Source of the DNA: a virus
Virus record (IMG/VR): IMGVR_UViG_3300027522_000010
Span: 1-40,294 of that record
DNA length: 40,294 nucleotides
Strand: one strand, 5' to 3'
Every line of letters starts with the position of its first letter. Within the stretch, counting starts at the first letter, position 1. Of the stretch, positions 22,206-37,321 are shown one piece after another. The notes below the pieces were generated by a model. It searched no databases. It was given only the letters and a program-made list of their open reading frames with translations, and had not been told where the DNA came from. The position numbers and the translations under genes are program-made.

Positions 22206-22961
22206 ATGGCAATAGGAAGTTTAAAAACACCATTTAAAAAGAAACAACAGGAGCAAGAAGACTCACCTTTAAAAAATACCGGATCTAGTATTGGAAGTAC
22301 AGTTGGTGGTATTGCTGGTACAGCAATTGGAGGTCCTGTTGGAGCTGCTATTGGTTCAACGCTAGGAGGTCTTTTTGGGGGTTTGTTTGGATCAAAAGAC
22401 GAACAAAAGCCAGTGCAAACTGGACCTACCGCTGCTGAAATAGATCTTGAAAGAAGACTAACTGAATACGAGGGCGCAGATTTTAAAACAACAAACCCTT
22501 ACGGTAAGATGACCGTAAACCTACAAGCAGCAGAGTTTCAAAGAGATCAACAAGCACAATCACAAGCAGATATACTTCAATCAATGAGAGGAGCTGGCGG
22601 GGCCGCTGGTGGAGCTTCTTTAGCCGCGGCAATGTCTAGACAAGCTGGTGAAAAGGAAAGAGCTATATCAGCAGATATTGGCAGACAAGAGCAAGAGATA
22701 CAAATGAAGTATGCAGATCAGTCTGTGGCAAATCAACAAGCTAAGCAAAAGTTTAACTTGGATAGAATGTCTACTATGCTTGGAATTAACATGGCTCAAG
22801 TTACTGGCGAGCAACAAGGTAGATTAGCTCAAGACCAGTTGGCAGCTCAAGCTGATCAAAACAGAATGAATAACAACTCCGCAATGCTAGGCGCTGGATT
22901 AGACTTAGCTGGTACTGTACTTGCTTCAGGGCTTGGTGATGGCGGATTTTTAAACAAGTAA
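22206..22961 (+). CDS. internal virion/ejection protein with glycine-zipper membrane segments
   Basis: This 251-residue protein has a basic, disordered start (residues 1-22). A glycine-zipper stretch at about 25-65 has repeated G-x-x-x-G spacing (GSTVGGIAGTAIGG, GAAIGSTLGGLFGGLFG). A long Gln/Ala-rich helix (about 85-220) follows, then a second Gly/Ala hydrophobic end (MLGAGLDLAGTVLASGLG). Such small glycine-zipper proteins ahead of two larger internal proteins are the pattern of podovirus ejection proteins (T7 gp14, P22 gp7), which insert into the host envelope during DNA delivery. It is encoded just upstream of two other candidates of this class, so the three probably act together. Assignment is by composition and order. 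Confidence 0.65.
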   Translation: MAIGSLKTPFKKKQQEQEDSPLKNTGSSIGSTVGGIAGTAIGGPVGAAIGSTLGGLFGGLFGSKDEQKPVQTGPTAAEIDLERRLTEYEGADFKTTNPYGKMTVNLQAAEFQRDQQAQSQADILQSMRGAGGAAGGASLAAAMSRQAGEKERAISADIGRQEQEIQMKYADQSVANQQAKQKFNLDRMSTMLGINMAQVTGEQQGRLAQDQLAAQADQNRMNNNSAMLGAGLDLAGTVLASGLGDGGFLNK

Positions 22962-22962
22962 T

Positions 22963-24333
22963 ATGGCAGATCAATCATTAATAAACGCGGCGCAAAGAAT
23001 GTATGGCGCTAAAAACGCTGTAGCTAAAGAAGCTCTGAAAGATATAACGCCTATAGTTGCTGGTGTTCAGTCTGGAACAGCTAAAATAGCTGTTGCTATT
23101 GCGGAAAAAAGAAAAAGACAGAAGGAGGATAGTGAGAAGAAGATAGAGCCTTTTAAAGAGGTTTTGTTGAAAAACGCTACTTTACGACCAGAGCTTACTT
23201 CTAGGCTAGAAGATCTTCAAGAAGAGTATTACAAAAACTTAAAAACATCAGAGGCGCTTTTAATTGGTAAAGACAAGAAGTCAGATGCCGTTGAAAGAAA
23301 CAACAAAATTGCTGGTATACTTAAAACATACGAGTCGCAAATAGCATCGGTTGATCTTAGCAAAAAAGAAAATATTGATGTCTCCAACGCTAACTCTTTA
23401 GCCGCACAGCTTAACGATGTTGTTAGAAAAGATAAAACTCTAGCAGATAATATTATCGTTAAAGACGATGGCCTTTATTTCTTGGATGCAGATAATGTTG
23501 AACAGTCACTAGACGACTATACACCTCCAATGGCAGTGTATCAAACAGGTGTAAATAAGTGCATAGATGTTTTTTCATCTATACAAACAGCCGGTAAAAA
23601 TGGAGAGCCTTACGAAGGCAAAATAGAAGAGAAGGTTGAAGGTATTATGAACGACATGTTAAAGGCTGACAACTTTTCATCTTTGTTGTTTGATGATATA
23701 GGTACTTTTAATTGGGCTACAGAAAACATGACACAATATTTTGGTGAAAGTTCTGGCGTACAAAGAGGAGAAGACGGTAAGATTGAGATTGTTGACAAAG
23801 AGCAACATGCTGAAAATGCTGAAAAGCTAAAGATCATGTACGAAAAAGATCCAGAAGCTTTTAAGGCTGAATTTAAAAAAGACTATATAGAATCTGCTAA
23901 AAAACAATATGACATAGCAGACCAAACTAGAAAAAACGCTCTTAGAGCTAAAAACAACCAAGGTACAGGTGTTAAACCTACATTTGCTCAAATGAAAAAG
24001 TTTGAAAACTTTGTTACATCTTTCAACAGTGGAGAAGACATTGTAGGTGAAAAAAATATTTTCAAAAGAAATAAAACGGGAGGATATGATATTTACACGA
24101 AAGGGGGTCAGCCAATTCTTAATCCAAGTACAACTGATAAAAATGACGTAGCTGTACCAGGCACTCAACAATCATTAAGTTTTGAAGAGTTGAAAAGCAG
24201 AGCTACCGAACTTGGGCTACCGCAAGAATACGCAGTCCGGTTATTGACATCCATTCCAAATAGAGGAGCAACAACAAATTCTTCAACCAACACAAAGAAA
24301 AAGCGTAATTTGGTAAATATTCCTGGCCTTTAG
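22963..24333 (+). CDS. putative internal virion (cargo/ejection) protein
   Basis: This 456-residue protein has an Ala-rich N-terminal helical region (residues 1-45). A long charged coiled coil (KRKRQKEDSEKKIEPFKEVL, then LTSRLEDLQEEYYKNLKT) and further helices follow. The tail is polar and ends in a basic TNTKKKRNLVNIPGL. No catalytic motif, signal peptide or transmembrane helix is visible. It starts one base after the glycine-zipper gene and precedes the giant internal protein, so it is probably the middle-sized member of the set packaged in the capsid and ejected with DNA. An alternative is a tail-hub component. Confidence 0.6.
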   Translation: MADQSLINAAQRMYGAKNAVAKEALKDITPIVAGVQSGTAKIAVAIAEKRKRQKEDSEKKIEPFKEVLLKNATLRPELTSRLEDLQEEYYKNLKTSEALLIGKDKKSDAVERNNKIAGILKTYESQIASVDLSKKENIDVSNANSLAAQLNDVVRKDKTLADNIIVKDDGLYFLDADNVEQSLDDYTPPMAVYQTGVNKCIDVFSSIQTAGKNGEPYEGKIEEKVEGIMNDMLKADNFSSLLFDDIGTFNWATENMTQYFGESSGVQRGEDGKIEIVDKEQHAENAEKLKIMYEKDPEAFKAEFKKDYIESAKKQYDIADQTRKNALRAKNNQGTGVKPTFAQMKKFENFVTSFNSGEDIVGEKNIFKRNKTGGYDIYTKGGQPILNPSTTDKNDVAVPGTQQSLSFEELKSRATELGLPQEYAVRLLTSIPNRGATTNSSTNTKKKRNLVNIPGL

Positions 24334-24402: not shown

Positions 24403-27400
24403 ATGTTCGAATACGAATTTGAAGGCGATCTATACACTCAGGAAGACGTGGACAAGAGAGCATCAGAAAAAGGTTTAACAACAGAAGAATATCTACAGGC
24501 TAGACCGCAATTAAAAAAAGTTGAAGCGGGAAAGCAGAATGGCACCACACAGACGGACGAAACGATGGTGTCAGGTACGGAGTCCACATTGGTAGATGGT
24601 TTATTGGAGCAAGTCGCTGGTAACGTTGGAGATAGAACTTCTTTTGTAGATAAAGATTTTTTCAACAAACAAGAAAAAGAATTCGCTGGTCAGCTGGCGG
24701 TTAAATTTCCTGAGTTTAAAGTATCTAAATCAGGTAAGTTTTTTCCATTCTCAGACGCAACCTATAATGACCCTAGAGCATCTCAGCGTATGGGTCTTGC
24801 TAACTATGTAGAAGTTGAAGCACCTAACGGTGAAAAGCTATTACTAGAGACTGCAATAAGTAGCTCTTCTCAAAAGAAAATAAAAGAAAAAGGAGAAGAT
24901 GGCTTAGCCAAATACTATCAAGATCTTCAAAATGATTTAACAAACTTCATTAACGTCAATTCAAATGAAGGTGCAAAATTTAAAAATCAGCTATCAGAAA
25001 ACAAAAAAAACCGAAGAACCTTACAGCTTGAGTTTGAAAAGTCTACAACAGCAAACGAAAATCAGCTTAGTGATGTAAACACACAATTTCCAGACATTAG
25101 TATATTTGATACTAGTGAAAGACTAATAGTAGAAAAGGTTATTAGCGGAGGAGCTGGAATGGACGTAAAATTTCCAATTCGCAGACAGTCAGAAGAAGAT
25201 CAATACGAAACTATACAGCCCTACGAAGAAGCTTTAAAAAGAGCAACGCTAAGTCTTTTCTCAGAAGAAGGCACTAAGCCATCAGATTACACTGAGTTAG
25301 ATGTAAAAAACAAAGCTTTAGAAATTCTAAGAACTGATGCTATTGATAAAATAGAAACAGACAACAAGCAAAACGTTATAGATGATCTTCAGAACGGTGA
25401 AATACTGCCATCGTTAAAAGAAGAGTTTGACAAAAACACTTTTTTAAACTACGATAATTTAAAAAGTTACATAACTGTAGGTACTAAAGAATACAGCGAA
25501 GATCTCGTTAAAATAATGAATGGTATCGTAAAAAGCAAAGTTGATTTAGAAAACACTGAAACTCAACTTCAAGATATAATAAATAAAAAAGTTTACACTA
25601 AAAAAGACATTAGCGACTACACGGAAGTTTACAGTGGTTACTCGCAGCAAATAGAAGACTACAACACCTCGCTAGAACTATATGGTAATTTCGCCACTGT
25701 AGATGTTAAAGATATAAACAAGTCAATAAACTTACTACAAAAAAACTATGACGGCTGGGATAAACAATCAGCAAATCTTGCTCTAAACTTTAGAGACTTC
25801 GCGGCAAGAGCTAGCTATGGTGTTAGCACTTTTATTGGCGCAGATGGACACTTGCCAGATCTTGACAATCCAGATATGACTAGAGAAGAAGCTAGAACAT
25901 TAAGGCTTCAAGGTATTATAGCTCAATCAAACATTATAAAAAGCGGCTATGAAGATGATGTAGCTTTTGAAAATGCTTTTAAGACTCCAGAAAAATTCAT
26001 GAAGTGGACCATTAACATGGCCAACACTCAGCTACCTATACTTGCTTCTTTAGCTATTCCTGGTGGGTGGAGCGGTCTTTTAGCAAACTCTTTTGGTGAA
26101 AATTATTCTCAAATGACGCTAGAAGACATGGAGGATAAGGCTGCTGCTGAGGCTTTTGGTATGAGCTACGAAGAAAAAAGTAGGTTTAACAAATGGGCAA
26201 CAAGTACTGCGTACGCTGTTCCAGAGGTTGTATTAGACAGGCTAACTACTGGCGCTAGGGTTAGAGGCATAACGGAAATGTTTAAGAAAAGTGGTGACGA
26301 TCTGATTGACGTTACAGCTAAGCAGGTGTTAAACGATGTAGCGTTTGGAATACCTACCGACGCTGTAATGGGTGCTTTATCTGAAGGTACCACTCAAGTT
26401 TGGCAAAACTGGCTTACAGGCAAAGAGTTAAGCGAAGGAGTTGGTGAAGCTGCTTTTTCAGGGTTAATAATGGATGGCGCACTATCATCACTACCCACTT
26501 TAAAGTCTGCTGCTATAATGATGTTTACAGACAACGCTAAGATAGACGAGGCTAGAGCTTTTCAAAAACAAATAGACGACTTAATTGTTTTAGGAAAGTA
26601 CCAACCAGAAGGCACGTTTAGTAAAGAAATTAAAGAGCTAGAAACTCAACGAGACGAACTTATTAGAGAGTTTGAAGACAACGTTATAGGAATAGGAGCA
26701 AAGGGAATAGGTCAAAGTGCAGTAGAAGCATACGTAAGGCTAGGCACAATGAAAGTGTCTTTAAAGAACAGAGCTCAAGCTATAATAGACGATAAACTGC
26801 TTACGGAAGAGCAAAAGCAATTACAACTTGCAATATTAAAAGCAAATTACGATGCCATTAAAGGTGTTCAAAAGCAATACACCCAAGAAAAAGGAACAGA
26901 GTTTAACATGTATGTTCTTGATCCTAGCAACAAGGTAGAAGTAGACAAGTTTTATAAAGATGCTAAAGCAAAACTTGTTAAAGATGGTAATGCAAATCCG
27001 ACAAAAATACAACTAGACGACGAAGCTAGATTTAATTACAATATCAGAAAGATAGAGCAAGACCTTTTAAATCCTGCTAAAGGAGTGTTAGACAAAAAGC
27101 TACGTGTCTTTAGGTCTAAAGACGAGCTTGACAATATAGAGGACCAAACTATAAAAGAAGCAGCTATAAAAGCTTACGAACAAGGTGACAGTGGTTTTGC
27201 TCTAGAAAAAGGCGAGTTAAAAGATGGCGAGACAACCTTGATCTTTACTGAAAACATGGCTAAAGATGATAGACTTGAGATTAGAACTCACGAGCTTAGT
27301 CACGAGCTTACAAAGCAAGCTTTCAACGACAACCCAGCCATCTTTGATGGTATGGCTATGACTATAATGGAGTGGGCTAAAGCTAACGACACAGAGTTAT

Positions 27401-30400
27401 ACAATAGGCTAGATCGACAAGTACAGAGAGGTGACGAAGCTGGAGAAAAGGGTAAGCTTTTAAACTACGAGGTTGTTGCTAACTTTTTTGAAGAAGTTGC
27501 TGCTGGAAGAGTTGATCTTAAAGCTAAAAAAAATAGAGGCCTACTTACTATATCTGCTTTTGGAACTAACAAGGCTATGAAAGACGAGTATGGCGTTGAC
27601 TTTGATTTAGCTGGAGTTGATGACGCTATTTCTTTGATGTACGGTATAGCTAAAAAAATTAGCAAAGGTACTTTGACTCAAAAAGAGATTGACGAGCTAT
27701 CTGACAACGAACAAATAAAAGCACTAGAGCAGAGAGGTAATCAAATAAAAGAACAGTACTTATTCGCGCTTGGAAACGGTATTAAAAAAGCATCTAAAGC
27801 TCAAATTAAAATTGATAATCTAGGTGACAAGTACACTAGGGAAGAGTGGCAACGATTTGGAGCTGACGAAACTATCGCGGCTATATACGAAGATCTAACT
27901 AGCCTAGTTGGTAGCAAGGCATTTATGCTTGAAAGACTACCAAGCTTTTCAAAAGAAGACTTTATAACAGACGCTATTGGTGAGTTAATACCTCACATAC
28001 GTAACTTCAACATTGACAGAAAGAAAACTGATGAGGGATTTGGTTTATCTGGTTGGATCAACTCACAGTTGATGAATAAAATAGGTAACGTACTTAAAAA
28101 GAAAACAGCCACTACAGAGTCTTTTGTTGTTGATACGACTGAAGAGACATTTAAAGAAATACAAGACGATAGAAACAACCTAGAGATGTTTGAGGAAGAA
28201 GATTTATCCCTTCAAGCACAGCTACGTAAAAAACAAGACGAGCAAAGAAGAGAAGATAAAGGCTTAGACTTAGGAGTAGAGTATTCTGAGTTTAGAAGAA
28301 GCTTAGAGCTTAGCGGAGTAAAAGGCCTTGACAAGAAAATGCAAGAGATTGTTAAAAAAATTACTCTTAAGGTTCTTGGTTCTTCAAAGTTTATAAATCT
28401 AGACATTAACGTTTTAGAAGCCGAGCTACAAAGAGAGTTTGAAAAAGAATTAAAGAAAACAATACAAGATGCAATGGGTGGCACAAACGACTACACCAAC
28501 TTCTTGATTCAAAACAAAGATGCCATATTAAAGTACATGGACATATCTTCTTTAGTAGCTATTGAAAGACAGGTTTCTGATGATGACAAGATACTAACTA
28601 AGTTTGTTAGGCGTTTAACTACACAAAAAGATATTCAAGACGCTATAGACAACGGTTGGTTAGCACACGTTGAAAACCCCGCTGTTGGACCAAACCTGTA
28701 CGAGGTGTTGAATCCTTCAACTTCTGATTTTCTAAAGTTTTACAATCCACCGCTAAGAGTTGATAGTCCTAAAAAAGTAAAACAATGGGACGCTATGCCT
28801 GACGCTCAAAAACAAGCACTAGCTGACAACATGGGTATTACCCTAGAGCAAGCTAAGGCAAGATTTGTTGAGGTTAGATCTGGTTTGAAAGGTACTAGAA
28901 AAGATACTTTAGCAGAACGTATTGGAGGTCAATTTGCTTTCGATGCTACTATGGAAGTTATTCAAAGCCCTGAATTTGCTTCGTTACGCGAGGCTGCTGG
29001 TATGCCAGTTGTTGCTCAAGCTAGAATAAAAGAAATAGCTAGAAGAATAGACAGAGGTATTGAGGTTAAGTTTGCTAGTAAACCTATTAATCAAGCTCAA
29101 ATAAGTTTAGCTTATAGAATAACAGAGGCTTCTGATGGTAGTCTTTATAGTGGCAAGCTTGGTATTTCCTACAGTGGATATGGAGATGAAAGAAAATATT
29201 TTGTAAGAAACAAAAGCGTTTTAGAAAGACTAGTAAAAGAGTCAATGGTAAGATCAGATAATACTATTCAAGTTGCCTTAGGTATAGCCTATGAAGTAAT
29301 GGCTTCTGACTACTATAGAAGTCAAAGAATAGTTGATCCAACAACTAGAAAGCAAATATATTTACAAGCTCTTTCGGATAAAGTAGAAAACATTAAATCT
29401 ACACCTAACTCTATATTTGAGCAAATACACATTGACGACGTTTATAAATACGCTAAAAGCAATAACGTTAAAATAGTTAGAAAAGCAACAGAAAAAGACG
29501 ATGCTCCAGACATTTACTATTATGTAGGAACTAAAAAACAAGGTAATGGATTTGGAATAGAAGTAAAAATGGGGCTTTCAAAAGGTACATCTGTAACTTT
29601 AAGACCTTATAGAAATTCTAAAGGTGAGTGGTATTTTGTGAATAAAAAACAAAGCAAAGAAAAGGCTTACAATTACGACTTTTTGTCTAATCAAGACAAG
29701 CAAAACTTTGACAAACTATTAAGGGAAGCTGCTGACGCCTTGAATAGATTCGAAAAAGATCATAAGATAAAAATAGATTTTGATAAAGGAATTAGCGCTA
29801 AAGACTATAAAAGAATATTTACAGATGAAGGTTATACAAAATCTTCGTACAGCATTAGAGACAAGCACTCGCTAAGCCCTAGTATAACAGGAGCTATGTA
29901 CGCTGAGAAAAAAATAACTTCAGGGCTTATAACTATAGAAGATAGAGGTATTTTCATGCTTCCTACGTCTCCTGTTTCTCAAAAAGATAAGGTTGGCGAA
30001 GCTGCTGAAATAACTACTCAAGTTGTCGCTGAGTTTAAAAAGCTTACTGATAAAACTATACCGTTATTTACTACTCAACTAGACACGCAGTTAGAGTTTA
30101 GAACAGGTAAACCTAGAATAAATGATGGTGGAAGTAGGTCTATAACCATGAGGTTTAGCCAAGCTATAGATAATAATAGTATAGATAAATCTCCTATAAA
30201 CTTAGTAAGCGACGGAGAAATGATTACTAAGGCTATATCAAACGTTTTAAACGCTAAAAAAGCAGCTAAAGTTGGTAAGTCTAGCGATAAAGCTATAATA
30301 GCAGCTAGATTAACTAACCACAAAACAGAATCTGTAGGTATGTCTGCGTTTGACTTTGATGAAACATTAATTGTAGACGGTGAAAACTTTGTTACAGCCA

Positions 30401-32985
30401 CTAAGGGTAGTGACATAGTAAAAATAAGCTCTGGCAAATGGCCTATAGAAGGTCCTAAGCTAGCTGAAGATGGTTACACATTTGACTTCTCTGACTTTGT
30501 AAACGTAAGAGGTGGGATTGATGGTCCATTGATGAAAAACTTTAAGAAAAAGCTAGCTAAGTATGGTGGTGAAAATATGTTTATACTTACCGCTAGACCT
30601 CAAGAAGCAGATAAAGCAATACACGGATGGTTAAAGTCAAAAGGTATTAACATACCTCTAGCTAACATAACTGGTTTAGCAAATAGTACTGGAGAGTCTA
30701 AGGCTCAGTGGATGCTTGACAAGTTTGCGGAAGGTTATAACGATATGTATTTTGTAGATGATGCTTTGCCTAACGTTAAAGCCGTTAAGCATGTTCTTAG
30801 TCAATTAGACATAAAGTCTGACGTTCAACAAGCTAAAATTAAGTTTGCTAGCAAGATGAGTGCCACTATTAACGAGATGATCGAAAGATCTAGAGGCATA
30901 CCAAGTGAAGAGATTATATCTAGAGCTATATCAAGAAAAAGAGGAAAGAATAAAAACAAGTTTCAAGTATTTTTACCACCATCCGCTGAAGACTTTTTAG
31001 GTCTAACGTACTACATGTTAGGTAAAGGCTCTCAGGGAGATGCAGATCTTAGGTTTATTAAAGAAGCTTTAGTTAATCCTTTCTCAAGAGCATATACAGA
31101 GCTAGACGCAGCTAGACAAACTATACTAAACGACGTTGCAAATCTGAACAAGAACTACGACGGAGTTAAAAAGAAACTAGGAAAAATGATGCCTAATAGC
31201 GAGTTCACTTATGACAACGCTATTAGAGTTTACTTATTCAACAAGCATGGGCATACTATTCCTGGAATATCAAACGAAGAAGTAGCAAACTTAGTTGGCA
31301 GAGTTAATGCTGATATGGAGCTTTTAGTTTACGCCGAAACCTTAGACATGTTATCTAAAACAGAAGCTTATCTTAAGCCTGGCGAGTCTTGGACAATAGA
31401 GTCTATAGCGTCTGATATGAAAAAAATAATTGAAGGTATACATAGAAAAACGTTTTTACAAGAGTGGATTGACAATAAGAAAGAAATTTATTCTGAAGAA
31501 AACTTAAACAAAATAGAAGCAGCTTACGGAACTTCATATAGAGAAGCTTTAGAAGATATTCTTTATCGTATGGAGACTGGTATTAGTAGACCAACTGGTA
31601 AAAACAGAATAACTAATCAATGGACTAACTGGTTAAATAACTCGGTTGGAGCAATAATGTTCTTTAACGTTAAATCTGCAGGGCTACAAATGATCTCTAC
31701 AGTTAACTACTTAAACTTTGACGACAATAACGTGTTTGCGGCCGGTAAAGCTTTTGCTAACCAAAAACAATACTGGGAAGACTTTACGTTTATTTTCAAC
31801 TCTGACTTTTTAAAACAAAGACGATCAGGTTTAAATACAGACGTTTCACAGTCTGAAATAGCATCAGCTGTTGCCGGAGCTACAAATAAGGCTAAAGCTG
31901 CAATTGCTTACTTGCTTAAAATAGGTTTTTTACCTACTCAAATAGCGGATAGCTTTGCAATATCAGGTGGTGGTGCTGCTTTCTACAGAAATAGAGTTAA
32001 CAAGTATTTAAAAGAAGGTTTAACTAAAACAGAAGCTGAGCAAAAAGCATTTGTTGACTTTAGAGAAGTAACGGAAGAGTCTCAACAGTCTGCTAGACCT
32101 GATAGAGTTTCCCAACAACAGACAACTAATGCAGGTAGACTTATCCTTGCTTTCCAAAATGCACCTATGCAGTTTAATAGAATAATTAAAAAAGCCGCAC
32201 TAGACTTAATCAACGGAAGAGGTGACTGGAGAGCTAACACTAGTAGAATAATATACTATGGTGGAGTTCAAAGTTTTATATTTTTAGCGCTTCAAAACGC
32301 GTTGTTTGCCTTAGCGTTTGACGACGAAGAGAATAAAAATCTTACTAAAAAAGAACTAGAATATACGCTAAAGTTTGAACAAACAAAGTATGAAAGAATA
32401 GTAAACGGTATGATAGACACCTTGCTTAGAGGATCTGGTATAACTGGCGCTGTAATATCTACTTTAAAAAATGCAACTCTTAGGTTTATGTCGGAAGCTG
32501 AAAAAGGTAAAAGGTTAAACGAAGTAAGCCCTTTGCTTGAACTATTAAACATATCACCTCAAATAGGATCTAAGGCTAGAAAAATAGTTAGTGGAGAAAG
32601 AGCTTACAAGTGGGATTCAGAGGCTATACCTTTTATGAGCACTTTAAATAGTAAAAATCCTTTATGGTTAGCTACCGCCCCTGTTATTGAGGGATTAACT
32701 AACGTACCATTAAACAGAATTCTTACTAAAATAAATAATTTAAAAGAAGCCTCTAATGATCAAAACGAAGCTTGGCAAAGAGTTGGCGTATCTTTAGGTT
32801 GGAGCTCTTGGGACTTAGGCGTAGATCCTACAAAAGAAGTAAAAGAGGTTATTAAAGACGCTAAAAGAAAAGGGTTGATAAAGAGCAAGAGTTTAGGTAA
32901 GTCTTGCCTTGCGACAAAGAGCAACGGTACTTCTTGCAAGAACATTACTACTAACCCAAGCAGACTGTGTTACCTTCACGATTAA
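24403..32985 (+). CDS. giant polyvalent internal virion protein: metallopeptidase, PD-(D/E)XK-like and HAD-like modules
   Basis: This 2860-residue protein covers a fifth of the window. The start (FEGDLYTQEDVDKRASEKGL) is a short motif I associate with very large phage proteins, followed by coiled-coil stretches. Residues 963-967 are HELSH (HExxH zinc peptidase motif), with candidate third ligands at E1023 or E1030/E1031. Residues 1702-1703 (PD) and 1720-1722 (EVK) fit a PD-(D/E)XK nuclease core. A HAD hydrolase set follows: D1984-F-D-E-T1988, T2063 (ILTARP) and D2119-D2120. A hydrophobic segment lies near 2615-2640 (SFIFLALQNALFALAF). The C-terminus is a Cys3His zinc-knuckle-like tail (C2835, C2845, C2856, H2859). 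This is the architecture of polyvalent proteins, which are packaged in virions and enter the host with the DNA. The modules are called by motif only. Confidence 0.8.
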   Translation: MFEYEFEGDLYTQEDVDKRASEKGLTTEEYLQARPQLKKVEAGKQNGTTQTDETMVSGTESTLVDGLLEQVAGNVGDRTSFVDKDFFNKQEKEFAGQLAVKFPEFKVSKSGKFFPFSDATYNDPRASQRMGLANYVEVEAPNGEKLLLETAISSSSQKKIKEKGEDGLAKYYQDLQNDLTNFINVNSNEGAKFKNQLSENKKNRRTLQLEFEKSTTANENQLSDVNTQFPDISIFDTSERLIVEKVISGGAGMDVKFPIRRQSEEDQYETIQPYEEALKRATLSLFSEEGTKPSDYTELDVKNKALEILRTDAIDKIETDNKQNVIDDLQNGEILPSLKEEFDKNTFLNYDNLKSYITVGTKEYSEDLVKIMNGIVKSKVDLENTETQLQDIINKKVYTKKDISDYTEVYSGYSQQIEDYNTSLELYGNFATVDVKDINKSINLLQKNYDGWDKQSANLALNFRDFAARASYGVSTFIGADGHLPDLDNPDMTREEARTLRLQGIIAQSNIIKSGYEDDVAFENAFKTPEKFMKWTINMANTQLPILASLAIPGGWSGLLANSFGENYSQMTLEDMEDKAAAEAFGMSYEEKSRFNKWATSTAYAVPEVVLDRLTTGARVRGITEMFKKSGDDLIDVTAKQVLNDVAFGIPTDAVMGALSEGTTQVWQNWLTGKELSEGVGEAAFSGLIMDGALSSLPTLKSAAIMMFTDNAKIDEARAFQKQIDDLIVLGKYQPEGTFSKEIKELETQRDELIREFEDNVIGIGAKGIGQSAVEAYVRLGTMKVSLKNRAQAIIDDKLLTEEQKQLQLAILKANYDAIKGVQKQYTQEKGTEFNMYVLDPSNKVEVDKFYKDAKAKLVKDGNANPTKIQLDDEARFNYNIRKIEQDLLNPAKGVLDKKLRVFRSKDELDNIEDQTIKEAAIKAYEQGDSGFALEKGELKDGETTLIFTENMAKDDRLEIRTHELSHELTKQAFNDNPAIFDGMAMTIMEWAKANDTELYNRLDRQVQRGDEAGEKGKLLNYEVVANFFEEVAAGRVDLKAKKNRGLLTISAFGTNKAMKDEYGVDFDLAGVDDAISLMYGIAKKISKGTLTQKEIDELSDNEQIKALEQRGNQIKEQYLFALGNGIKKASKAQIKIDNLGDKYTREEWQRFGADETIAAIYEDLTSLVGSKAFMLERLPSFSKEDFITDAIGELIPHIRNFNIDRKKTDEGFGLSGWINSQLMNKIGNVLKKKTATTESFVVDTTEETFKEIQDDRNNLEMFEEEDLSLQAQLRKKQDEQRREDKGLDLGVEYSEFRRSLELSGVKGLDKKMQEIVKKITLKVLGSSKFINLDINVLEAELQREFEKELKKTIQDAMGGTNDYTNFLIQNKDAILKYMDISSLVAIERQVSDDDKILTKFVRRLTTQKDIQDAIDNGWLAHVENPAVGPNLYEVLNPSTSDFLKFYNPPLRVDSPKKVKQWDAMPDAQKQALADNMGITLEQAKARFVEVRSGLKGTRKDTLAERIGGQFAFDATMEVIQSPEFASLREAAGMPVVAQARIKEIARRIDRGIEVKFASKPINQAQISLAYRITEASDGSLYSGKLGISYSGYGDERKYFVRNKSVLERLVKESMVRSDNTIQVALGIAYEVMASDYYRSQRIVDPTTRKQIYLQALSDKVENIKSTPNSIFEQIHIDDVYKYAKSNNVKIVRKATEKDDAPDIYYYVGTKKQGNGFGIEVKMGLSKGTSVTLRPYRNSKGEWYFVNKKQSKEKAYNYDFLSNQDKQNFDKLLREAADALNRFEKDHKIKIDFDKGISAKDYKRIFTDEGYTKSSYSIRDKHSLSPSITGAMYAEKKITSGLITIEDRGIFMLPTSPVSQKDKVGEAAEITTQVVAEFKKLTDKTIPLFTTQLDTQLEFRTGKPRINDGGSRSITMRFSQAIDNNSIDKSPINLVSDGEMITKAISNVLNAKKAAKVGKSSDKAIIAARLTNHKTESVGMSAFDFDETLIVDGENFVTATKGSDIVKISSGKWPIEGPKLAEDGYTFDFSDFVNVRGGIDGPLMKNFKKKLAKYGGENMFILTARPQEADKAIHGWLKSKGINIPLANITGLANSTGESKAQWMLDKFAEGYNDMYFVDDALPNVKAVKHVLSQLDIKSDVQQAKIKFASKMSATINEMIERSRGIPSEEIISRAISRKRGKNKNKFQVFLPPSAEDFLGLTYYMLGKGSQGDADLRFIKEALVNPFSRAYTELDAARQTILNDVANLNKNYDGVKKKLGKMMPNSEFTYDNAIRVYLFNKHGHTIPGISNEEVANLVGRVNADMELLVYAETLDMLSKTEAYLKPGESWTIESIASDMKKIIEGIHRKTFLQEWIDNKKEIYSEENLNKIEAAYGTSYREALEDILYRMETGISRPTGKNRITNQWTNWLNNSVGAIMFFNVKSAGLQMISTVNYLNFDDNNVFAAGKAFANQKQYWEDFTFIFNSDFLKQRRSGLNTDVSQSEIASAVAGATNKAKAAIAYLLKIGFLPTQIADSFAISGGGAAFYRNRVNKYLKEGLTKTEAEQKAFVDFREVTEESQQSARPDRVSQQQTTNAGRLILAFQNAPMQFNRIIKKAALDLINGRGDWRANTSRIIYYGGVQSFIFLALQNALFALAFDDEENKNLTKKELEYTLKFEQTKYERIVNGMIDTLLRGSGITGAVISTLKNATLRFMSEAEKGKRLNEVSPLLELLNISPQIGSKARKIVSGERAYKWDSEAIPFMSTLNSKNPLWLATAPVIEGLTNVPLNRILTKINNLKEASNDQNEAWQRVGVSLGWSSWDLGVDPTKEVKEVIKDAKRKGLIKSKSLGKSCLATKSNGTSCKNITTNPSRLCYLHD

Positions 32986-34322: not shown

Positions 34323-34642
34323 TGAAAACTATAGCTTTATTATTGTTGTTATCTTCAACCGCTTGGGGACAAATAGTAGTAACTCACTTTAATGCTGACT
34401 GGAACAGTCCTAACAAAGTAAGTTACATTGGTAAGCTAACAGACTGTGACATAGTATATGTTGATATAGCTGTAGCACCAGTGTTACAAGCTAAACACGA
34501 GATAGTTGTAGTACCTACAGTTGTTATATTTAAAGATGGAGAAGAAGTAAAAAGATTTCAGGCTGATATATCCTTTAGCATGAAAGCAACAAGAGAGGAT
34601 ATGCAAGAAATAATTGACGAACTAATAATGAGCGACTTTTAA
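34322..34642 (+). CDS. exported thioredoxin-fold protein lacking the CxxC active site
   Basis: This 106-residue protein has a signal peptide (MKTIALLLLLSSTAWG, then Q17). The mature part follows the thioredoxin pattern: strand and active-site position F-N-A-D-W-N-S-P-N (23-31), a strand (DIVYVDIA), the conserved cis-proline strand VVVPTVVIFKDGEEVKRF, and a C-terminal helix (TREDMQEIIDELI). In active thioredoxins the motif is F-x-A-x-W-C-G-P-C. Here both cysteines are asparagine while the tryptophan and proline remain, so dithiol-disulfide chemistry at this site is excluded. A binding or chaperone-like role in the periplasm is possible. TAATG junctions on both sides tie it to its neighbours. 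Confidence 0.75.
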   Translation: MKTIALLLLLSSTAWGQIVVTHFNADWNSPNKVSYIGKLTDCDIVYVDIAVAPVLQAKHEIVVVPTVVIFKDGEEVKRFQADISFSMKATREDMQEIIDELIMSDF

Positions 34643-36453
34643 TGAAATACTTATTCACACTATTACTACTAGTAAACATAGCGTTTGCTCAATGTCCTAA
34701 CGGAACTTATGTAAACATAGTTATTAATCCGGATCAATACCCAATTGAAACATCTTGGGCTATAGTTGATTACTTTGAAGATACTATTGCTACAGGTGGT
34801 CCTTACGACGATATAGTTGGATACGAACCACAGCTAATGCAAGTATGTATACCTAATGGTGATTACTTGTTTAATATATCCGATCAATATGGTGATGGTG
34901 TTGCTGGTAGTTTATGGGGTGGACAAGATGGATCTTACTATGTAGTGCATTGTGGTGATACTATAGTGCAACCAGACTCTGCTAACTTTGGCTTCGCTGC
35001 TTTTCATGGGTTTACACTAGATGATTGTGCTCCGGCACCGCCATTGTATGGTTGCATGGATGATAACTACATAGAATTTTTACCTGTAGCTACTGTTGAT
35101 ACAGGTATGTGTTTCATTGAGAAAGTATTTGGCTGTACAGAAGAAGACGCGTTTAACTATGATGAGTATGCTAACACTGATATTACAGTTGATAGCTGCT
35201 TACACACGCTAGAACTTACAGATTTAGCTGGTAACGGTTGGGCTGGCGCTTACGTACAAGTTATACAAGGCTATAATTCTTTGGGTGTATTCACGCTAGA
35301 AGATGGCTTTGACACTACGTTTACATTTAGCTTAGATATATCGCAAGTAATAGAGGTTATATTCTTTACGACACAACAATCGCAGTTTACTTCAGTACAG
35401 TGTGGCTACACTTTGTACTCAGAAGAACACCTTACTATATACGAGCCAGGAGGATTTGCTAATCCACTTATACCTTTTCAACCAGTGCTTGGCATGCCTT
35501 ATTGTGGTAATAGCTGCATAGATAAAATATATGGCTGTACGGATGATACAGCTTTAAATTACAACGAGAGTGTGAATACAGATGACGAGAGTTGCTACTA
35601 CGTTTCTGGGTGTACTAATCCAATATACCTAGAGTATAACGCAGACGCTGACTTTGATAACGGAACCTGTGAAACGCTCGTGGTTCTAGGTTGCATGGAT
35701 GAAGCAGCCTTGAATTATAACCCTGAAGCAAACACAGAACTAAATGGCTCTTGTGTTGATGTAGTTTTAGGATGTATGAGTGAGTTAGCGTTTAACTTTA
35801 ATCCTAACGCAAACGTAGATGACGGCTCGTGTATAGCATACTCGTATGGTTGCACTGATCCTACCGCATTTAATTACGACGCTGATGTTAACACTGACAA
35901 CGGTAGTTGTATAGAAATTATTAACGGCTGTATTGATAGTACAGCTATGAACTACAATCAACTTGCAAACACTGATAATAACTCTTGTATTTATCCACTG
36001 CCTGGTTGTACTGACGCGACCGCTGAGAATTATAATATATCGGCTAACGTGTCAGACTCTAGTTGCTACTATTCTGCTGGTTGTAGTGTTGGTGATATAT
36101 ACTATATTCCTAATGAGTGTTTTAGCTGGGTAATAGAAGTTGACGAGCTATGTTGTAATGCTGAGTGGGATAATACATGTGTAACACTATACGAATACTG
36201 TGTTGACGGATGGACTGGCCCAACTAACATTGCAGAGCTTAGAAGCAATTTAATTATATATCCTAACCCTACAAGTGATTATATAAACATCAGTAAGAAA
36301 GTTGACGCTAAAGCGTTTAATACCCTTGGCAAGCTTATATTATCTAAAAAACAAACAAACGTCCTAGACTTATCTAGTTTTGAATCTGGAATTTACAACG
36401 TTATACTTAAATATAACAATATAATAATTAACAAAAGAATTATAAAACAATAA
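34642..36453 (+). CDS. T9SS-targeted, Cys-repeat surface/secreted protein
   Basis: This 603-residue protein has an N-terminal signal peptide (MKYLFTLLLLVNIAFA, then Q17) for Sec export. Residues 535-603 are a type A T9SS sorting domain (IIYPNPTSDYINIS at the start, a central FNTLGKLIL, then SSFESGIYNVIL and NKRIIK), which would carry it through the host outer membrane. In between are two GDG/GNG modules (about 78-110 and 190-290) and nine copies of a roughly 24-residue repeat G-C-x-D-x-x-A-x-N-Y-x-x-x-A-N-x-D-x-x-S-C. Two copies lie between the modules and seven in tandem at about 297-478. A Cys-rich block (ELCCNAEWDNTCVTLYEYC) precedes the sorting domain. These elements are common in secreted proteins of marine Bacteroidota. 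It was probably acquired from a host and may coat or modify the infected cell surface. Confidence 0.9.
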   Translation: MKYLFTLLLLVNIAFAQCPNGTYVNIVINPDQYPIETSWAIVDYFEDTIATGGPYDDIVGYEPQLMQVCIPNGDYLFNISDQYGDGVAGSLWGGQDGSYYVVHCGDTIVQPDSANFGFAAFHGFTLDDCAPAPPLYGCMDDNYIEFLPVATVDTGMCFIEKVFGCTEEDAFNYDEYANTDITVDSCLHTLELTDLAGNGWAGAYVQVIQGYNSLGVFTLEDGFDTTFTFSLDISQVIEVIFFTTQQSQFTSVQCGYTLYSEEHLTIYEPGGFANPLIPFQPVLGMPYCGNSCIDKIYGCTDDTALNYNESVNTDDESCYYVSGCTNPIYLEYNADADFDNGTCETLVVLGCMDEAALNYNPEANTELNGSCVDVVLGCMSELAFNFNPNANVDDGSCIAYSYGCTDPTAFNYDADVNTDNGSCIEIINGCIDSTAMNYNQLANTDNNSCIYPLPGCTDATAENYNISANVSDSSCYYSAGCSVGDIYYIPNECFSWVIEVDELCCNAEWDNTCVTLYEYCVDGWTGPTNIAELRSNLIIYPNPTSDYINISKKVDAKAFNTLGKLILSKKQTNVLDLSSFESGIYNVILKYNNIIINKRIIKQ

Positions 36454-36853: not shown

Positions 36854-37321
36854 ATGAAACTAGAAGTGTTAAGATTTAGCTCACAGGTAGATTCTACTTC
36901 GGGACTATTATTTGAAGTTACAGATATTAGAAAACATTTTTTGTGTTACACTCTTGAAGACGAGCGCAGAGCGTTCAAGGTAAAGGGTGAGACTAGAGTT
37001 CCAGCAGGAACATATAAAATTGAACTAAGAACTGAAGGAGGATTTCATGGAAGATACGACAAAAAGTATCCTGGCGTACACATTGGTATGTTGCACATAC
37101 AAGACGTACCTAACTTTGAATATATACTAATACACACTGGTAATACTGATGAGCATACCGCTGGTTGCTTGATAGTTGGTGATGCTCAAGAGAACAATAA
37201 AATAATAGCTGACGGTTTCGTAGGTAAGTCTGTTAACGCTTACAAAAGAATATATCCTAGCATTGCTAAGGCAATACAACAAGGAGAAGAAGTAACAATA
37301 ACATATATAGATCACGACTAA
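36854..37321 (+). CDS. DUF5675-like protein, candidate cell-wall (lysis) enzyme
   Basis: This 155-residue protein matches the DUF5675 pattern as I know it: L-E-D-E-x-R (residues 35-39), R-V-P-A-G-T-Y-K-I near 51-59, an H-G-R-Y-D-K-K-Y-P-G segment, HIGMLHIQDVPNFEYILIH, and the core H94-x-G-N-T-D-x-H-T-x-G-C105-L. The His...Gly-Cys arrangement resembles the active site of L,D-transpeptidase (YkuD) enzymes, so a murein-directed activity is a reasonable guess; the family itself is formally of unknown function. No other endolysin candidate is seen in the window. It lies after the membrane/envelope genes and joins the next gene by TAATG. Cytoplasmic unless released by a holin, since no signal peptide is present. 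Confidence 0.65.
   Translation: MKLEVLRFSSQVDSTSGLLFEVTDIRKHFLCYTLEDERRAFKVKGETRVPAGTYKIELRTEGGFHGRYDKKYPGVHIGMLHIQDVPNFEYILIHTGNTDEHTAGCLIVGDAQENNKIIADGFVGKSVNAYKRIYPSIAKAIQQGEEVTITYIDHD

Follow-up and report, generated by a model that had tools for sequence, protein, structure and literature searches.

The locus poses the question of what a phage carries in a single giant protein encoded among its virion genes, and whether the enzyme-like motifs along the chain belong to real domains. The window (the whole stretch of DNA analysed, a linear IMG/VR virus record of 40,294 bases) contains an ATG frame at positions 24403-32985, which an open-frame check confirmed to encode 2860 residues. All features of this protein and its cassette are on the plus strand, and window positions are given in brackets after residue numbers. 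The original prediction described a virion protein with peptidase, nuclease-like and phosphatase-like motifs, and the residues that it named are in place: HELSH at 963-967, PD at 1702-1703, EVK at 1720-1722, D1984/D1986, T2063 and D2119/D2120. From the open frame and a family of relatives, we conclude that the frame encodes a real, well-conserved multi-enzyme protein of the ejection type, a variant of the polyvalent proteins. Its most surprising part is a module resembling region 2 of sigma-70 factors which, like the family-defining C-terminal module, formed no part of the original prediction.

A mosaic family in marine phages

The giant gene sits among late virion genes, downstream of genes for terminase, portal, capsid and ring proteins that match PHROGs 6681, 6547, 13704, 14543 and 13977. 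The terminase shares 64% identity with that of MW202828 and 46% with that of Flavobacterium phage elemo, with further relatives in Cellulophaga, Tenacibaculum and Maribacter phages, and the host is probably a marine member of the Bacteroidota. Two downstream genes were noted in passing. The first (34642-36453) encodes 603 residues with a start resembling a signal peptide, repeated units of the form GCTDxxAxNYNxxANxDxGSC and a C-terminal segment like the T9SS sorting tails of Bacteroidota, which is unusual for a phage; the second (36854-37321) encodes 155 residues that by eye resemble the DUF5675 small enzymes and may belong to lysis.

Whole-chain searches of the giant protein against Pfam, PHROGs, NCBIfam and the PDB gave nothing significant, a PADLOC search gave nothing useful, and tblastn with the whole chain and two of its modules found no match among 50,697 phage records. 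A first scan recovered nine further relatives sharing the C-terminal part, and a profile of that part led to 80 more loci and to at least 570 matching stretches in IMG/VR. Five relatives lie on bacterial MAG contigs, three of them labelled as Bacteroidota groups. The family is abundant and yet escapes Pfam, PHROGs and NCBIfam, so that many marine podoviruses of Bacteroidota have their largest gene unannotated. The comparisons below use about 93 non-redundant members.

Three parts form the core of the family: an HExxH...E zinc-peptidase signature, a HAD domain and a C-module of 670 residues that is entirely helical. The C-module is well kept, in contrast to the mosaic that the family shows over the N-terminal 2,000 residues. 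In the window protein, residues 1-870 (24403-27012) form a variable region with low or patchy conservation. Residues 1309-1539 (28327-29019) form a confidently modelled middle domain between the sigma-like and nuclease modules (pLDDT mostly 75-95), common to 20-30 members. Another accessory module is common to L044 (residues 2869-3268), L019 (1731-2115, with two matching stretches) and L024 (1274-1491). A module that is GNAT-like by eye, shared by L007 (1685-1791) and L028 (2334-2473), replaces or follows the HAD domain, and its position argues for cassette exchange next to the C-module.

The C-module itself (residues 2150-2820; 30850-32862), defined by alignment, AlphaFold and BFVD comparison, is 38-59% identical to the window sequence across 78 relatives, and its model is all-helical with a pLDDT of 85.6 and a pTM of 0.80. 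Comparison with the PDB gave no convincing match, the best Foldseek E value (0.13) and VIA Z score (4.3) not being meaningful. In BFVD, four close relatives ranked first, one of them named as a UDP-N-acetylglucosamine kinase, and further matches at roughly 10-16% identity included proteins named PolyVal ART, MuF-C and LPD and a Gundel_1 structural protein. Neither hmmsearch nor hhalign supported a homology between the C-module and the giants of phages phi38:1 and elemo. A hydropathy scan marked a single membrane-helix-like stretch within the module, GVQSFIFLALQNALFALAF (residues 2621-2639; 32263-32319), and the helical C-module with this stretch may be the part that serves in packaging, translocation or membrane anchoring. 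Beyond it lies a Cys/His tail, CLATKSNGTSCK...CYLH (residues 2832-2860; 32896-32982), a possible zinc knuckle judged by its residues; in the relatives inspected, by contrast, the chain ends in a basic tail.

Peptidase-, nuclease- and phosphatase-like domains

The zincin-like metallopeptidase module (residues 880-1100; 27040-27702) was delimited by HExxH conservation and modelled secondary structure, and the HELSH zinc motif (27289-27303) within it by sequence and alignment. The motif is well beyond chance, as composition alone predicts 0.74 occurrences in total, and HExxH is found in 82 of the 83 full-length non-redundant members; only L039, whose open frame is short (1391 residues from its first Met), is without it. 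The only invariant columns in a 74-sequence alignment are H963, E964, H967 and E1023, the last (27469-27471) being the candidate third zinc ligand. The model orders these elements as strands, an HExxH helix and a second helix with the Glu, which agrees with zincin secondary structure, and the polyvalent zincins have likewise been described with a Glu on the second helix (PMC5512222). No zincin appears among the structure matches listed by Foldseek or VIA, where the model holding this stretch has a mean pLDDT of 70, and a large multi-domain model may conceal such a match. On this evidence we take the signature (HExxH with a downstream conserved Glu) as present and the zincin fold as putative.

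Once the protein is packaged or delivered, such a near-universal peptidase could divide the giant chain into functional pieces, perhaps at a short motif that recurs along it. The motif, of the KFSK type, stands at module borders in several members, and the window protein carries the variant KFASK at residues 1556-1560 (29068-29082) and at 2147-2151 (30841-30855), between the HAD domain and the C-module. Outside the HAD/C-module region, the pattern [hydrophobic][KRQ][FY]S[KRQ] was seen 31 times against 6.9 expected, a count that overstates independence because some sites are inherited; permuted and substituted versions were mostly at expectation. A KFSK-type junction is therefore best regarded as a candidate processing site and no more, and it makes self-processing by the zincin directly testable. 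Alternatively, the peptidase may be an effector directed at proteins of host defence or regulation, which it would cleave, rather than a self-processing enzyme. An invariant core within diverging surroundings would suit that role equally, and Iyer et al. list both functions for polyvalent proteins (PMC5512222); the recurrence of KFSK-like motifs at module borders argues against it, indirectly, by suggesting processing sites within the chain itself. We regard the effector role as a possibility of some weight; in either case the active-site residues are conserved and the substrate is a matter of prediction.

Farther along the chain, residues 1655-1948 (29365-30246) form a module resembling PD-(D/E)XK nucleases, with the PD at 29506-29511 and the EVK at 29560-29568. 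As a bare regular expression, PD...ExK is at chance level (6 matches against 6.1 expected), and motif-only evidence was therefore dropped in favor of module conservation and structure. On those grounds the module stands: D1703, E1720 and K1722 are invariant and E1673 is near-invariant in 10 members with only 15-26% identity to the window module, and the top VIA row for the model is the HhaI endonuclease 6uke (Z 8.7 over 185 residues, rmsd 4.2, 16% identity), with Hjc (1gef) at Z 5.3. A viral-contig scan with this region alone found no relatives, and its profile against PDB sequences gave only an unrelated match (E 0.83). The profile search across the family was confined to N-terminal parts, an earlier iteration having drifted into the C-module. 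Residues 1655-1948 thus have, in the model, a restriction-endonuclease-like fold with E...D...ExK catalytic residues, and nuclease activity is predicted. The module is an accessory, present in about ten members, and would cut nucleic acid, for example host DNA or competing elements. A separate PD...ExK stretch adjoins the C-module of L008 in place of the HAD domain. Among the folds originally proposed, structure comparison has therefore borne out PD-(D/E)XK, by the HhaI match, and has returned no zincin among the matches listed.

The HAD phosphatase-like domain (residues 1975-2145; 30325-30837) is identified by its catalytic set and by HMM. Its DxDxT, T, K and DD motifs occur in order, and none of D1984, D1986, T2063, K2100, D2119 and D2120 varies among 56 homologs, so that the proposed HAD series holds and gains a Lys. 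By HMM the domain is present in 86 of the 93 members, usually about 167 residues ahead of the C-module. DUF2608 matches weakly in 52 of 56 members (best 6e-6), and in the window protein scores 19.8 bits, below the cut-off of 22.6. In L006 the motif set has decayed.

Three relatives have an unusual insertion at this point: a P-loop domain like that of polynucleotide kinases, matching the AAA_33/zeta-toxin families of Pfam and polynucleotide-kinase PHROGs, lies right after HAD motif I in L063 (residues 1495-1659), L072 (2057-2221) and L044 (2480-2644). It is seen only in these three and is absent from the window protein. By its sequence motifs, the HAD domain with its nested kinase points to nucleic-acid end processing, and the HAD domain would then remove phosphates from nucleic-acid ends; together with the nuclease, these domains suggest that, at entry, nucleic acids are attacked or have their ends repaired. 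The original prediction had instead paired the PD-(D/E)XK and HAD domains as processors of DNA or RNA ends. The family comparison does not support this pairing as stated: the HAD domain is near-universal and the nuclease an exchangeable accessory, and in the three members where the HAD domain has an obvious enzymatic partner, this is the nested kinase. An RNA ligase was considered as a further partner and rejected, being present in only 4 of 29 records, two of them over the cut-off.

A module resembling sigma-70 region 2

The peptidase is immediately followed by a module (residues 1134-1246; 27802-28140) with structure and profile matches to region 2 of sigma-70 factors. When the model of residues 880-1975 was compared by VIA, sigma region 2 of WhiG, SigS, Sig28 and SigE filled most of the best 50 rows, covering residues 1116-1238 with Z scores of 5.2-6.8. 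A match of this kind is weak by itself for helices, and the resemblance was therefore tested by sequence. In hhalign, a profile of 21 family modules matched five E. coli sigma factors in the right register (P 0.0011), with a score of 27.7, where none of 60 shuffles exceeded 13.7 and the reversed profile reached 10.4. Among tiles of the window protein, the one starting at residue 1141 scored highest (26.3), the others being mostly at 9-17 with one of 22.2 at residue 241. The equivalent regions of other members reached P values down to 4e-5, and an alignment of 26 module sequences matched the E. coli factors with a P of 5.3e-6 in the register of sigma 2.1-2.4. Furthermore, the late sigma factor family phrog_234 matches within the giant frames of L057 (6.1e-8) and L050 (1.4e-6), and Pfam Sigma70_r2 matches that of L019 (17.9 bits, below the cut-off of 24); all three matches fall inside the module by coordinates. 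An iterated profile detects the module in 79 of 85 members; sequences were admitted at E 0.01 in a restricted region, which leaves the weakest detections less certain. Of the aromatic cluster by which sigma factors melt the -10 element, the module keeps only a part, which counts against the assignment.

The module could instead be a small helical domain, such as a linker or a peptidase exosite, whose likeness to sigma factors is fortuitous. Pfam Sigma70_r2 has no match in the window protein itself, sigma factors rank second, third and eighth in the profile search of the PDB with no significant score, and helical models can reach a VIA Z of 6.8 by chance. No tile of the window protein matched the helix-turn-helix of sigma region 4; the T4 gp55-type sigma factors lack this region. 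Against a fortuitous likeness stand the wide gap between the real profile and its shuffled and reversed versions, the lower scores of the other tiles, the stronger P value and right register of the larger alignment, and the independent late-sigma matches inside the module in two relatives. On this evidence a chance resemblance seems unlikely, and the module is probably a true relative of sigma region 2.

A remote homolog of this kind may bind host RNA polymerase, and would then steer it to early promoters of the phage or away from host genes. If so, the module provides an alternative to the strategy of N4, which injects a whole polymerase. It is tempting to go further and picture a marine phage family that injects a sigma-like domain within a self-cleaving multi-enzyme protein and so redirects host RNA polymerase at once, with no phage polymerase; we offer this picture tentatively, as one that may well prove wrong. 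Our literature search, which was partial in coverage and so is no proof of novelty, found no polyvalent protein with a sigma domain. Separate sigma-like genes of 252-286 residues, matching Pfam Sigma70_r2 and mostly over its cut-off, were also seen elsewhere in the relatives' phage contigs (L005, L019, L060, L045, L080, L067, L021, L008, L007, L006, L003, L013, L059 and L004).

The ejection cassette and known systems

As originally proposed, two ejection-type genes precede the giant gene. The small one (22206-22961) encodes 251 residues with a glycine-rich stretch in a position like that of T7 gp14, and was assigned by synteny and BLASTP; its product matches the phi38:1 gp99 structural protein (7e-6), and homologs lie two genes upstream of the giant gene in 76 of 83 family loci. 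The medium one (22963-24333) encodes 456 residues in a position like that of T7 gp15, and was assigned by synteny; its sequence is fast-evolving, and the relatives listed have a gene of 330-620 residues at this position. The small, medium and giant genes follow one another in phages phi38:1, elemo and phi13:2 as well, where annotation makes the giant a structural or virion protein. The ejection cassettes of N4 and T7 have the same arrangement, and by analogy the giant protein would come third in a podovirus ejection cassette and be its largest product. Because they rest on gene order and relatives, packaging in the virion and delivery with the first DNA are stated here as predictions.

Two other accounts of the giant protein deserve consideration. 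It might be mainly a structural protein of the ejection channel, like T7 gp16, in which the enzyme-like domains have degenerated and are carried along in structural roles. Its position and large helical C-module would fit a channel or pilot protein, and some members have lost catalytic features, the HAD motifs being decayed in L006 and the domain absent or undetected in 7 of 93. Even so, the catalytic residues are invariant columns in a sequence that otherwise diverges freely, as selection for activity would leave them, and a purely structural role is in our judgment improbable. Still less probable is expression of the gene only after infection, with an unpackaged product acting in the cytoplasm, as the gene has a late position inside the virion block, the ejection-gene order is conserved, and the syntenic giants of the three cultured-phage relatives named above carry structural or virion annotations. 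The reading that we favor, with good though incomplete confidence, is that of a polyvalent protein of the ejection type, which would enter the cell together with the DNA, may cut itself into parts, and would engage host RNA polymerase and process nucleic-acid ends. The original prediction is supported in part, namely as to a multi-enzyme protein of the polyvalent type within an ejection cassette, with a zincin signature, a PD-(D/E)XK fold and a HAD domain.

The concept of polyvalent proteins, with zincin processing, was set out by Iyer et al. in 2017 (PMC5512222). Like those proteins, the giant chain has many unrelated enzyme domains, a central zincin signature and a place among virion genes; its zincin, sigma-2-like, PD-(D/E)XK and HAD parts join disparate activities in one polypeptide, and its C-module resembles BFVD proteins with polyvalent names. 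Unlike them, the window protein has no PolyVal or LPD match in Pfam, LPD14 being found in one relative. The main text of PMC5512222 uses none of the terms sigma, phosphatase or restriction endonuclease fold. The separate modules also differ from their prototypes. The nuclease shares the fold and the E...D...ExK set of HhaI and other PD-(D/E)XK enzymes, from which it differs in being embedded in a giant chain. Kinase and HAD phosphatase are combined as in the T4-type polynucleotide kinase-phosphatase, with the kinase nested inside the HAD domain and not before it. The sigma-like module resembles sigma-70 region 2 and the T4 late sigma factor gp55 (phrog_234) in profile, structure and register, and unlike sigma-70 factors is fused behind a peptidase, with the melting aromatics partly kept and no region 4 found.

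Among phages of related gene order, the giants of Cellulophaga phi38:1 (gp101), Flavobacterium elemo (gp72) and phi13:2 (gp127) likewise follow two smaller ejection proteins, and elemo gp72 also has an HExxH peptidase. In all three, the C-module, HAD domain and sigma-like module are undetectable by sequence, elemo gp72 keeping only the HExxH part. Phage N4 offers a close parallel: it has three ejection proteins, and the giant among them, the RNA polymerase gp50, combines an HExxH domain with a C-terminal part that is large and helical (PMC12633501). The window protein shares with gp50 its place as the giant of a three-gene cassette, the HExxH domain and the big helical C-terminal part. A T7-like RNA polymerase domain had no match in the window chain in Pfam, PHROG, NCBIfam or PDB searches. 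Where N4 brings its own polymerase, the window protein has a sigma-region-2-like module instead, which would make use of the polymerase of the host, along with nuclease and HAD domains.
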